Positions 23,122 to 33,148 of a stretch of DNA of 64,000 nucleotides are shown here, piece after piece. Each line of letters opens with the position of its first letter. The stretch's first letter is position 1. Made by a program: the position numbers and the translations under genes. Source of the DNA: Candidatus Anaerobutyricum avicola (GTDB lineage: Bacteria > Bacillota > Clostridia > Lachnospirales > Lachnospiraceae); NCBI GenBank assembly GCA_019113845.1, contig DXGQ01000054.1:1-64000 (forward strand), given 5' to 3'. Below the pieces are notes generated by a model. The model saw only the letters and a list, made by a program, of their open reading frames with translations. It did not search any database and was not told the origin of the DNA.

Positions 23122-23835
23122 ATGACTGCATATCTTGGTGAATTTTTAGGTACCATGCTCCTCGTTCTTCTTGGAGACGGCGTTTGCGCCAACGTGAACC
23201 TGAACAAATCAAATTTCAAAAATGGCGGTCTGGTAATTGTAACAATCGGATGGGGTATGGCAGTACTTCTTCCGGCAGCATGTTTCAGCGGTATCTGCGC
23301 CGCATCTTATAACCCTGCACTGACGATTGCTCTGTGCATCGGTGGTTCTCTGCCATGGTCACAGTGCATCGGCTACATCGTAGCAGAGATGATCGGTGGT
23401 ATTATCGGTGGTATCCTCGTATGGATCTGCTTCAAACCTCAGTTTGATGCTACCGCTGATGAACCGGGAACCATGCTTGGCGTATTCTGCACCGCACCTG
23501 GTGTCAGAAATATTCCATATAACATTTTACAGGAAGCATTTGCAACATTCTGGCTGGTATTTGCCATTCTGGCATTCCCGAACTGTGGTGTTGTTGATGG
23601 CGGTGTTTCCAAATTCTTCGTATTTGCGATCATCGTTTCCTGCGGTATGTCCTTCGGTGGACTGACCGGATACGCTATGAACCCTGCCCGTGATATCGGT
23701 CCTCGTATCGCTCATGCAATCCTTCCTATCAAAGGAAAAGGAGATTCTGACTGGGGATACGCGATCGTTCCTATTTTAGGACCAGTCATCGGTGCAATCG
23801 TTGCCGTATTATTATACATGGCAATTCCGTGGTAG
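23122..23835 (+). CDS. aquaporin / glycerol uptake facilitator
   Basis: A MIP-family channel of 237 residues with six membrane segments and the two half-helices. The NPA boxes read YNPALTIAL (near residue 75) and AMNPARDIGPR (near 190). The Asp after the second box is the mark of glycerol-conducting GlpF-type channels rather than strict water channels. AGGAGG lies upstream of the ATG. No glycerol kinase is nearby. A terminator follows, then a TetR-type regulator. Confidence 0.92.
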   Translation: MTAYLGEFLGTMLLVLLGDGVCANVNLNKSNFKNGGLVIVTIGWGMAVLLPAACFSGICAASYNPALTIALCIGGSLPWSQCIGYIVAEMIGGIIGGILVWICFKPQFDATADEPGTMLGVFCTAPGVRNIPYNILQEAFATFWLVFAILAFPNCGVVDGGVSKFFVFAIIVSCGMSFGGLTGYAMNPARDIGPRIAHAILPIKGKGDSDWGYAIVPILGPVIGAIVAVLLYMAIPW

Positions 23836-24137: not shown

Positions 24138-24671
24138 ATGGTAAGCAGAACAAAAGAGAAACTCGCAGAGGCGTTTAAAACAGTGGTATGTCGCAAATCA
24201 TTTGCAAAAACGACCATAGCGGACATCACAAAAGAATGTGGAATGACAAGAGAAAATTTTTATTATCATTTTCGGGATAAATATGACATTTTAAACTGGG
24301 TCTGTCAGAGGCAGCTTGTGGATCACATTCCGGAGAAGGGCAGCAAAAAGACGATGGAGGAATTCATCATTTTTATGGTAAAGAAGATCAATGCCGACTA
24401 TAAATTTTACCGCACAGTCATCCGGGATATCGGCGCGGAACAGGTGCGGAAAACGATACTGCCCTATATCAAAAAGCTCACATACTGGCTGATCGATGAA
24501 ACGCTGGATGATACGGTGTGGAAGATGCGCGAAGAAAAAGAAAACTTTGCCGTGGAATTTTTCTCCGACGCTTTCATCACATTTCTGACAGATTATATGC
24601 TGGAAAATGAAAAAATGGATGAAAAAATGATGATCATGAACTTTCAGTTCCTGTTTACTCAATTTTTCTGA
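24138..24671 (+). CDS. TetR/AcrR family transcriptional regulator
   Basis: A 177-residue regulator with an N-terminal helix-turn-helix (TTIADITKECGMTRENFYYHFRDK, about residues 25-48). The all-helical C-terminal ligand domain resembles the DhaS-like TetR_C group. The ATG start has GGAGAGGAGAG upstream. It overlaps the LysR gene tail to tail by 13 bases. Its target is unknown; the aquaporin gene just upstream is the nearest candidate. Confidence 0.88.
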   Translation: MVSRTKEKLAEAFKTVVCRKSFAKTTIADITKECGMTRENFYYHFRDKYDILNWVCQRQLVDHIPEKGSKKTMEEFIIFMVKKINADYKFYRTVIRDIGAEQVRKTILPYIKKLTYWLIDETLDDTVWKMREEKENFAVEFFSDAFITFLTDYMLENEKMDEKMMIMNFQFLFTQFF

Positions 24672-25546
24672 GTCAGCAATTCAATAAATGTTCTGGCTGC
24701 GATACTAAGCGAGTGAGAGGAGTTTTGCAGCAGGCAGATATCCCGCTTTGGAATGGATTCGTAAAGCGGGATGGAGACGATGCTCTTATCCTGAATGCCA
24801 GGCGCTGTCAGCTTCTCCGGATAAAAACCGACGCCCAGATTGTGCTGGATCAGAAGAAGGATCTGGTCCGTGGTCGCCGCCTCCATCTCTGCGTGGAAAG
24901 AAAGGTTATGCTGCAGGAAAAACAAATGCTGCAGCTGCCGGGTACTCGTATCCTTTCCCAAGGAGATAAACGGCAGATGTGCCACTTCAGAGAGATGGTG
25001 CGTCTCTTCGGCAAGAGAGGCGTACTTTGGTCCACCGATCAGGATGTCCTGGAAGCTGTAGAGAGTCGTCTTGGTGAGCGGTTTCCTTATATTTAATGGC
25101 GAGGCGACCAGAGAAAAGTCCACCAGATGATGAAGAAGCGCATCAATGGCCTGCGGTGCGGAAGTATTCATGATATGCAGGTGAATATGCGGATATTTTT
25201 CATGAAACAGCTCCAGCTTTTCAAGAAGGAACAAATGCAGCGCGATCTCGCTGGTTCCAATGGTGATACCCCCTTCTTTCATGTCTTTTTCTCTTTTTAT
25301 CTTTTCTTCTCCGGCAAGAATCTGTTCATAACCGACGGAAACATAATGGAACAGCGTCTCCCCTTCCGGCGTCAGCGACACACCCCGGTTTGACCGGATA
25401 AAAAGCTGACATCCCAGTTCATTTTCCAGAATATTCATACAGCGGGTGATATTCGGCTGACTGTTGTTAAGAAATGCCGCCGCTTTTGTAAAGCTTTTAT
25501 AGTGGGCGACATAATAAAAAATGCGGTAATAATCTAAGATGATCAT
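24659..25546 (-). CDS. LysR family transcriptional regulator
   Basis: A 295-residue LysR-type regulator. The N-terminal helix-turn-helix reads KSFTKAAAFLNNSQPNITRCMNILENELG, followed by FIRSNRGVSLTPEG. The C-terminal substrate-binding domain spans about residues 90-290. AAGGAGGG lies 7 bases before the ATG. It is divergent from the small secreted-protein gene at 25711, sharing a 164-base intergenic region, the classical arrangement for a LysR regulator and its target. Confidence 0.92.
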   Translation of the reverse strand: MIILDYYRIFYYVAHYKSFTKAAAFLNNSQPNITRCMNILENELGCQLFIRSNRGVSLTPEGETLFHYVSVGYEQILAGEEKIKREKDMKEGGITIGTSEIALHLFLLEKLELFHEKYPHIHLHIMNTSAPQAIDALLHHLVDFSLVASPLNIRKPLTKTTLYSFQDILIGGPKYASLAEETHHLSEVAHLPFISLGKDTSTRQLQHLFFLQHNLSFHAEMEAATTDQILLLIQHNLGVGFYPEKLTAPGIQDKSIVSIPLYESIPKRDICLLQNSSHSLSIAARTFIELLTQKN

Positions 25547-25600: not shown

Positions 25601-25629
25601 TTTACATAATGCGTTTTGGAAAGTATAAT
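25601..25629 (+). promoter_or_regulatory. promoter of the small secreted-protein gene
   Basis: TTTACA, a 17-base spacer and a perfect TATAAT. The leader then holds a small hairpin, TGTTTC with GAAACA. The promoter sits in the LysR divergent region. Confidence 0.75.
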
Positions 25630-25710
25630 ACAATTGTTTCAAGGAAACAGGATTTCTTCTTCCTGAAAATTATATAACAGGAAGCATGAAGAAAGAAAGG
25701 GGATTTTATC

Positions 25711-26067
25711 ATGTTAAGGAAAAAAACATTTTTAGCATTTGGAATAATGGCAATGATGTTCGCTGCTTGTCTGGGAAATATGACCATGGTACAGGCGGCC
25801 TCCCTGAGCGGAACGCAGAGTGAACCTTCTCAAACAGAGCAAAGAGCGATGTTATCAGAGTCTAATTTCTTTTGTCCGGGACGTTTAGGACAGGCTGTGT
25901 CCCTGTATGGAACGGGTGATGAATCAAAAAAGACAGCCATTCTTTCCCCGGGAAAGTTTGGTACGATCGGTCATAAAGATAAAAATATGTGGAGTGAGAA
26001 TAAAGGTAAAAAAATCACATGGCTTTCTCCGGGACAGTTTGGAGAAAACGAGACGTATTTATCCTGA
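25711..26067 (+). CDS. small secreted protein with three PG-x-[FL]G repeats
   Basis: A 118-residue protein I do not recognise. Residues 1-30 are a Sec signal peptide (basic start, hydrophobic core, cleavage near VQAA-S). The mature part carries three copies of a short motif: SNFFCPGRLG (51-60), AILSPGKFG (76-84) and TWLSPGQFG (103-111), each preceded by hydrophobic residues and set in Ser/Lys-rich linkers. The first copy holds the only Cys of the mature chain. GAAAGGGG lies upstream of the ATG. A good promoter precedes it and a hairpin that doubles as terminator follows. It is divergent from the LysR gene. The function is unknown; peptide precursor or cell-surface ligand are possibilities only. 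Confidence 0.7.
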   Translation: MLRKKTFLAFGIMAMMFAACLGNMTMVQAASLSGTQSEPSQTEQRAMLSESNFFCPGRLGQAVSLYGTGDESKKTAILSPGKFGTIGHKDKNMWSENKGKKITWLSPGQFGENETYLS

Positions 26068-26116: not shown

Positions 26117-27493
<1,377 letters not shown>

Positions 27494-27565: not shown

Positions 27566-27755
27566 TTGATACTTTTCGCATTCTCCTCTTTACTTATTGG
27601 AAAATGTATTCTAATATAAGTACATATATTGCCTGAAAACGGAAGGGTGACTGTGGCGTCCGGTCAGGAATGACAGCGACAGCGACCCAAAGAGCCAGGC
27701 AGTGAGGAAAGAGGCGGCACGGGATGTTGCCGCAAAAGGAAGCAGGAGGAAGAAA

Positions 27756-29306
27756 ATGAAACGATATATTGCGATCATACTGGCTGTACTGCTGGCAGTA
27801 TCCATGATGGGCTGCGGACAGTCCGGCGATCTATTCCCGGAGAGTACCGGCGAAGAAGGAGCTGTGCAGACAGCACCGGTAGATGAGAAGGGGATGAAGG
27901 TAGGGTATCTGCTGCCTTCAGGAACCGATACAACAGATACGGAGTCCCGCATCGAGGGGATCCGGCAGATGCAGTATGAGACAGGGCTGAAGGACAGCCA
28001 GATACTGATCCGGACGGATGTGTCAAAAGACGACAGCGCCGCTGCTATTGACGAGATGGTGCGGCAGGGCTGCAACATCATCTTTGCCTGTGACGGCCGC
28101 TATGAGAATACCATGCTGGCGGCAGCGCAGCAGCATCCGGATGTGCAGTTCTGCCAGGAAGACGGAACAAAGGCGAAAAAGAGCGGACTTGCCAACATGC
28201 ATACTTACTACGTCCGTCTCTTTGAAGGATATTACGCGGCCGGTGTGATCTCCGGTATGAAGATCAACGAGCTCTTAAACAGCGGCCGGATCACCAGCGC
28301 GGACTGCATCATTGGTTTTGTGGCCAATGCGGAGGAGCCGGAGACCACCAGCTGTATCAATGCGTTTTATCTGGGCGTGGGTGAAGTATGCTCTCAGGCA
28401 TCCATGCTCGTGCGTTACACGGAGGGAGCCGGCGATTATGACGCCGATGCCAGAGCGGCACAGCAGCTGCTGGAAGCGGGCGCGTCCTTTATGAGTCAGT
28501 TTACCTCCACAACAGGTGTGGCTACCATCTGTGCGGAAAATGATATCCCGATCGTGGGAAATGCAGTCAATATCATTGATGTGGCTCCGAGCGAGGCGCT
28601 GACCTCCGTGGTGGCAGACTGGAGCGTTTACTACACGTATGCAGTCAACTGTCTCCTTCAGGGCACGGCCATCGACACAGACTGGAGTGGCGGCTATGAC
28701 GACGGCGCAGTGATCCTTTCCCAGTTAAATGACAAGCATCTGGCAGAGGGCAGTATTGAGCGCCTGACAGAGGTGGAAAAGGATCTGCGGGACGGCAAAG
28801 CTAAAGTCTTTGACACAGAGAAGTTCACAGTGGACGGAGATTCTCTGGAGACGCTGGCGGAAGATAACGATGATTTTAAAAAGTTCGCGAAGAATATTAA
28901 GGACGGAGAATACAGGGAGTCTGCAAAGCGTTCCGCTCCTTCCATGGATTTCTTTGTGGATGGCATAGAAGAAAGCACCTATGATTATCTTGGTGACGGT
29001 GAAGAGAACGCTGAGACAGACGAGGCGGATTCTGATTCTGACGAGGCTGCCGTAGACAATGAGACCGTCGACGAGGAGAATACAGACGAGGAAGATACTT
29101 CTGACGAGGATGCCGCCGACGAAGGTGATTCTGATGAAGATACCACAGAGGAAGATGACTCCGATGCGGATACTTCTGATGCAGATGATGAAGAGAGCAC
29201 CTCTGATGAGGAAAGTGACACGGAAGAGGATACCGAAGAAGAGAGCGACACGGAGACAAGAGGAGCCGCCGGCCGTTATAACTTTGCGGAAGACAGTGAA
29301 GAATAG
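27756..29306 (+). CDS. BMP family substrate-binding lipoprotein with long acidic tail
   Basis: A lipoprotein (516 residues) with lipobox SMMGC near residue 20 and a basic membrane-protein (BMP/PnrA-like) periplasmic-binding domain over about residues 45-390. Hallmarks are KVGYLLPSG, a long GMKINELLNSG region and DWSVYYTYAVNCLLQGT. Known members bind nucleosides or other small molecules for ABC import, but no permease or ATPase lies beside it. Residues about 410-505 are almost entirely Asp, Glu, Ser and Thr, which other BMP proteins lack. The tail ends RGAAGRYNFAEDSEE. Start at ATG 27756 with AGGAGG upstream; the track start is 18 codons too early. Confidence 0.85.
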   Translation: MKRYIAIILAVLLAVSMMGCGQSGDLFPESTGEEGAVQTAPVDEKGMKVGYLLPSGTDTTDTESRIEGIRQMQYETGLKDSQILIRTDVSKDDSAAAIDEMVRQGCNIIFACDGRYENTMLAAAQQHPDVQFCQEDGTKAKKSGLANMHTYYVRLFEGYYAAGVISGMKINELLNSGRITSADCIIGFVANAEEPETTSCINAFYLGVGEVCSQASMLVRYTEGAGDYDADARAAQQLLEAGASFMSQFTSTTGVATICAENDIPIVGNAVNIIDVAPSEALTSVVADWSVYYTYAVNCLLQGTAIDTDWSGGYDDGAVILSQLNDKHLAEGSIERLTEVEKDLRDGKAKVFDTEKFTVDGDSLETLAEDNDDFKKFAKNIKDGEYRESAKRSAPSMDFFVDGIEESTYDYLGDGEENAETDEADSDSDEAAVDNETVDEENTDEEDTSDEDAADEGDSDEDTTEEDDSDADTSDADDEESTSDEESDTEEDTEEESDTETRGAAGRYNFAEDSEE

Positions 29307-32244: not shown

Positions 32245-32715
32245 GTGGCAAAATCAGAAAACATCCGCCTGATTGCGAACAACAAGAAGGCATACCATGA
32301 TTATTTTATAGACGAAAAATACGAGGCAGGCATCGCCCTTCACGGCACCGAGGTGAAATCCCTCCGCATGGGCAAATGCAGCATCAAAGAATCCTTCATT
32401 ACCATCAATCGTGGGGAAGTGCTGATACAGCACATGCACATCAGTCCCTACGAAAAAGGAAACATTTTCAACAAAGATCCCCTGCGCACCAGAAAGCTCC
32501 TTCTCCACAAGGCGGAGATCCGCAAGCTGGAAAATCAGGTCAAGATGAAAGGCTACACCATCATGCCCCTGAAAGTCTACCTGAAAGGCAGCCTGGTAAA
32601 AGTGGAGATCGGCCTCGCGCGAGGCAAAAAACTTTACGACAAACGCCAGGACATCGCCAAAAAAGACGCCCAGAGAGAGGCACAGAGAGACTTTAAGATC
32701 CGGAACTTGGGATGA
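32245..32715 (+). CDS. smpB: SsrA-binding protein SmpB
   Basis: Binds the tRNA-like part of tmRNA and delivers it to stalled ribosomes. It is 156 residues, the usual length, with [22 protein letters not shown], the [15 protein letters not shown] core and the basic C-terminal tail [18 protein letters not shown] that enters the ribosome decoding site. GTG start with GAGAGGAAA upstream. It converges on ssrA, separated by a perfect palindrome. Confidence 0.98.
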
Positions 32716-32779: not shown

Positions 32780-32802
32780 TGCATAAACAAGACTCTTAAA
32801 AA

Positions 32803-33148
32803 TGGACCTGAGGGGAATCGAACCCCTGTCCGAAAACCTATTCCGCACGGTATCTCCCATCACAGTCTTTATTTTGACATTCCCTCCGTCTGGCGTCTAA
32901 AGACAAACTCCAAACTTCAGTAGCTTCATATTACTTCATACCCGGCAAAGCTTACGGATACGAGTGTCCCACATAATCGGTGCCGGACTCTCAGTCTGTG
33001 GGTCTACTGAGGCCGACAGCTGCAACTTAGGCAGCGTATGCTAAATTATTATCTTCAGCGTTTATATTTAATTCCGAGTTTTAACGTGGTCCCGGACCAC
33101 GGATGGCTGCCCCACGTGCAAAGCCCCCGTCGAAACCAGTACAAGCCC
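32803..33148 (-). ncRNA. ssrA: transfer-messenger RNA (tmRNA)
   Basis: Rescues stalled ribosomes with SmpB. On the minus strand the 5' end GGGCTTG pairs with CAGGTCC at the 3' end to make the 7-bp acceptor stem (two wobbles). The T arm is AGGGG-TTCGATT-CCCCT and the 5' domain holds the typical TGGTTTCGACGGGGG. The discriminator is A at 32803; the CCA end is not encoded. The tag reading frame is at 33059-33027: GCT GAA GAT AAT AAT TTA GCA TAC GCT GCC then TAA. With the alanine from charged tmRNA this gives the degradation tag AAEDNNLAYAA. The resume codon is assigned from the TAAAC context upstream. Confidence 0.95.

Follow-up and report, generated by a model that had tools for sequence, protein, structure and literature searches.

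An orphan protein family with a conserved triple SPG motif and a divergently encoded LysR-type partner in a genus of gut Clostridia

We identified a real, previously undescribed and genus-restricted orphan family of proteins sharing an unusual, conserved triple motif in a 64,000-nucleotide stretch of Candidatus Anaerobutyricum avicola (contig DXGQ01000054.1, here referred to as the window). Its window member, designated SPG protein, is encoded by an ORF of 118 amino acids (25711-26067, forward strand). Because strong conservation in this protein is confined to an eight-residue motif present in three copies, SPG probably delivers or displays short peptides. Our tentative preference is for a LysR-controlled, largely disordered exported precursor that would be cut into three related peptides acting outside the producer.

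The three motifs, FFCPGRLG (25867-25890), ILSPGKFG (25939-25962) and WLSPGQFG (26020-26043; all on the forward strand), were located by translation and alignment and follow the general form hh-S-P-G-[KRQ]-[FL]-G. Their PG pairs occupy residues 56-57, 80-81 and 107-108. The series described in an earlier note on this DNA, three motifs behind a signal peptide at spacings of 24 and 27 residues, was borne out by translation. In relatives, the first motif reads FFSPGRLG or IFSPGRLG, the second IFSPGKFG or LYSPGKFG, and the third, in the distant relative, WLSPGKFG. The Cys of the first motif is private to the window genome and is replaced by Ser in both close relatives. When the mature sequence was shuffled 1,000,000 times, three occurrences of PG-x-[FL]-G never arose, so the motif triple is beyond chance; the 17-nt DNA pattern of the motif had 7 matches in the 2.87 Mb genome, 3 of which were inside the SPG ORF.

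By inspection, the N-terminus (MLRKK, a hydrophobic stretch and a likely cleavage site between VQA and AS) has the form of a Sec signal peptide covering residues 1-29 (25711-25797, forward strand), and a structural model placed a helix at residues 2-32. The V-x-A site aligned without gaps with that of the homolog in the metagenome-assembled genome SUG271, and removal of the signal peptide would leave a mature protein of ~89 residues. A lipoprotein was rejected, as the lipobox [LVI][ASTVI][GAS]C is not conserved: the FAAC or FSAC that closes the hydrophobic stretch in three genomes has no aliphatic residue at -3, and C20 of the window protein has no positional match in SUG271, in which a Cys is present elsewhere, in the middle of the stretch. 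The gene is preceded by a promoter with an 11/12 match to the sigma-70 type (TTTACA-17-TATAAT, 25601-25629, forward strand), whose hexamers are kept in Eubacterium sp. An11 and CHKCI004 except for one -35 base in An11 (TTTACG), and by a strong Shine-Dalgarno sequence (AAAGGGG, 25696-25702, forward strand) located 8 nt 5' of the ATG and invariant in the upstream comparison between genomes.

Searches of Pfam, NCBIfam, PHROGs and PDB sequences gave only chance-level matches for SPG protein. Homologs with conserved repeats, on whose existence the earlier note had made its interpretation depend, were found by protein and profile searches and were confined to the same genus (4 of 24 genomes), the carriers being a small number of gut bacteria from chicken and pig. 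The proteins of CHKCI004 (loci L002/L008) and of An11, a laboratory isolate (L003/L009), are each 84% identical to the window protein; that of SUG271 (L004/L010) is only 36% identical and has all three motifs in the same order. As three of the four genomes are closely related to each other, the independent evidence amounts to two lineages. In one further genome, the metagenome-assembled G014, the place expected for SPG lies between contig breaks, making its absence there uninformative. An order-wide profile scan (392 genomes) returned only weak matches, most of which covered the signal-peptide portion of the profile; those set aside (L006, L007 and L011-L015) included several in long unrelated frames, and the frames that were read (L006, L007 and L011) had no motif series. 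A two-motif pattern had no match in the other 396 genomes of a family sample (397 genomes), and two unrelated, out-of-context matches in the other 390 of a class sample (391 genomes). We also found no relative in phages, plasmids or viral contigs, and such an origin of SPG was rejected on that basis. Since the order, family and class scans covered samples and the scan of the full contig collection used only two short peptide patterns, SPG may occur more widely than in this genus, metagenomes included.

The possibility that the ORF is not translated, also raised in the earlier note, is disfavored by codon evidence. Among the three close genomes the overall dN/dS was 0.24-0.36, and it was lower in the motifs (0.07-0.21) than in the linkers (0.25-0.48), all ratios being rough because the sequences are short; this argues for translation of the ORF and for selection on its protein product. 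On these values a repeat acting at the DNA or RNA level was also rejected, and Rfam was negative here. An antisense ORF was rejected as well: the reverse frame in SUG271 reads SPNFPGE repeats, yet the window has stops in this frame and no matching reverse ORF of at least 60 amino acids. Judged from codons and alignment, the motifs are the part of SPG that selection sees most. In the four-member alignment, 20 of the 25 invariant columns of the mature region were inside the three motifs, and the linkers had 5 in ~64 positions; the Lys/Ser linkers, to which the earlier note gave weight, are unconserved, and their composition has no visible role. Each slot keeps its own sequence (SPGRLG in slot 1, SPGKFG in slot 2 and WLSPG[QK]FGE in slot 3), and even at 36% identity, with diverging linkers, the distance between motifs remains about 24-28 residues. 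This pattern would also be expected of an intact multivalent tether, a flexible chain whose three short linear motifs attach to a repeated extracellular partner, such as the cell wall, a protein of the envelope, or a component of the host or community, with no need for cleavage. The different selection on motifs and linkers fits such a protein, which would explain slot identity and spacing better than a precursor does. On the other hand, SPG contains no sortase signal, second hydrophobic segment or conserved lipobox that could serve as an anchor, and no partner gene was identified. We regard the tether as possible and rank it slightly below the precursor.

A LysR-type regulator of 295 amino acids with HTH_1 and LysR_substrate domains (24659-25546, reverse strand) is divergent from SPG in all four genomes, and the two genes have a 164-bp intergenic region in common. 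The window neighborhood consists of a PurF-like protein, a MIP-family channel of the aquaporin or glycerol facilitator type (23122-23835, forward strand), a TetR-type regulator with TetR_N and TetR_C_8 domains (24138-24671, forward strand), LysR, SPG and then enolase. Domains and locus comparison place MIP, TetR, LysR and SPG in a four-gene block, which is kept in SUG271 at another chromosomal site with the MIP-TetR pair inverted; the enolase N-terminus of SUG271 was found on a separate contig behind a different gene. In genus members without SPG (G001, G018, G019 and others), enolase directly follows a kinase-like or PurF-like gene. These arrangements show that the block is separable from enolase and that LysR is the constant partner of SPG. 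The 3' side of SPG in SUG271 (L010, 3093-3425) is a contig end without enolase or a convincing ORF, where the assembly may have been interrupted by a repeat.

Regulation by LysR had been considered likely in the earlier note. The pairing stood up in four of four genomes, SUG271 with its different locus among them, and from this arrangement control of the SPG gene by its divergent neighbor is what we infer as most likely. LysR homologs of 42-47% identity in three other genus members (G003, G005 and G018) have no adjoining SPG gene, and in the LysR tree the SUG271 protein is closer to these SPG-less copies than to the window LysR, suggesting that SPG was lost in some lineages or that LysR was exchanged. 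A general class of LysR-paired multi-motif proteins was rejected: for 19 relatives of LysR from other genera, the divergent gene is an unrelated one (by sequence, YoaK-like, adenylosuccinate synthase, phosphoenolpyruvate carboxykinase-like or another), and the LysR family therefore does not predict SPG function.

In three genomes, enolase immediately follows SPG on the same strand. A long terminator-like hairpin (26122-26184, forward strand) directly precedes the enolase ATG in the window and covers its Shine-Dalgarno sequence; it is strong (z of -6.2 in the window; -7.4 was also obtained). Proximity to this hairpin raises the idea that SPG is a mere leader ORF whose translation or terminator controls enolase, which we consider very improbable: the SUG271 gene is not upstream of enolase, selection acts on the motif amino acids, and the same hairpin occurs before enolase in SPG-less G001, G018 and G019, for which reason a leader or attenuator role was rejected. 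The hairpin is kept in genus members despite different upstream genes, also precedes enolase at loci L082, L083 and L084, shows paired stem changes (AAATCC/GGATTT to AATTCC/GGAATT) and has no Rfam match. It belongs to enolase, not to SPG, and may control enolase translation or transcription.

Several other features were observed in the neighborhood. The window encodes a Bmp/PnrA-like lipoprotein (27702-29306, forward strand) with a very long C-terminal tail rich in Asp, Glu, Ser and Thr; the protein has 534 amino acids compared to 438 in the CHKCI004 and An11 loci (L008 and L009), suggesting that the tail was expanded. In CHKCI004, a BlaI-like repressor and a BlaR1-like membrane peptidase (named from sequence; L008, 6989-8796) are located between enolase and this lipoprotein; neither the window nor L009 has this pair. 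A tmRNA (32800-33148, reverse strand; Rfam RF00023, 155.9 bits) is convergent with a 156-amino acid ORF (32245-32715); the position of this ORF after RNase R points to SmpB.

Small size, export and a narrow, patchy distribution (4 of 24 genomes) would suit a precursor whose peptide is antimicrobial or modified in some other way, either a RiPP or an unmodified bacteriocin. This reading appears improbable, as the leader is of the Sec type and not double-Gly, there is no family match, and domains and ORF lists of the four loci revealed no adjoining modification enzyme, immunity gene or dedicated transporter. Neither a RiPP enzyme nor an exporter is located beside SPG, the neighbors within ~4 kb being ordinary genes.

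We favor the peptide precursor over the intact tether, with direct precedent in RRNPPA propeptides, which are 50-120 amino acids long and carry 1-4 peptide copies, the internal ones being cut out by extracellular proteases (PMC11343458). In the proposed route, the polypeptide would be exported by Sec, each motif would likely form a tight turn between hydrophobic residues, and extracellular proteases would cut the chain into three related peptides of ~8 residues, which as free molecules could act outside the producer, e.g., as signals. Motif conservation, the lower dN/dS of the motifs, conservation of LysR and the block, and the absence of a confident fold were counted as support. For the last of these, AlphaFold predicted the signal helix and otherwise no confident structure (mean pLDDT 45), a result compatible with a largely disordered chain beyond that helix but weak as evidence of disorder, since the model was built on four sequences. 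Against the precursor, the slot-specific sequences (RLG, KFG and W..[QK]FGE) and similar spacing would seem needless for free peptides. In addition, no conserved cleavage site flanks the motifs in the four sequences, and no receptor gene adjoins SPG.

A more specific proposal, which we consider unlikely, is a signaling system of gut Clostridia outside RRNPPA and Agr, in which a LysR-controlled precursor releases three distinct, slot-conserved peptides, with an unfamiliar receptor and a link to the small-solute channel and the TetR regulator. To our knowledge, few such peptide signals are known in this bacterial family. Should the motifs be released, these gut bacteria would produce three defined short peptides that can be read from the genome and synthesized, allowing a direct test of signaling; otherwise, SPG is a clean example of an exported, disordered chain on which short motifs have kept their order and spacing. 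The family lends itself well to an inexpensive peptide experiment.

Compared with known systems, SPG resembles the multi-copy RRNPPA propeptides (Phr of phages phi3T and phi105) as a putative Sec-exported precursor with an adjoining regulator gene, and in containing several short, nearly identical peptides with variable linkers between them (PMC11343458). Its motifs of ~8 residues are 24-28 residues apart, whereas the Phr-3T copies are ~20 residues apart from start to start (PMC11343458). With 118 amino acids, SPG is inside one range reported for these propeptides (50-120 amino acids, PMC11343458) and outside another (10-100 amino acids, PMC10075063). The RRNPPA regulator is a TPR receptor of 250-500 amino acids, whereas the regulator facing SPG is of the LysR type, with no TPR receptor of that size adjacent, and a domain search assigned the other neighbors to enolase, TetR and MIP; SPG therefore could not be placed in RRNPPA. 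The RNPP_C profile matched none of 24 genus genomes, but it also missed nearly all control genomes and covers little of the superfamily. Release and re-import of a peptide of 5-10 residues is a further mark of RRNPPA pairs. The missing TPR receptor lowers the probability that SPG is an RRNPPA propeptide, not that it works like a multi-copy propeptide. The AloP proteins of Paenibacillus, which are processed signaling propeptides, are small and Sec-exported, as predicted for SPG; their genes directly follow that of a TPR receptor (PMC7425212), whereas SPG is flanked by LysR and enolase. SPG also resembles systems composed of a LysR-type regulator and a divergent target, in that LysR and its probable target share one intergenic region and the pair is conserved.
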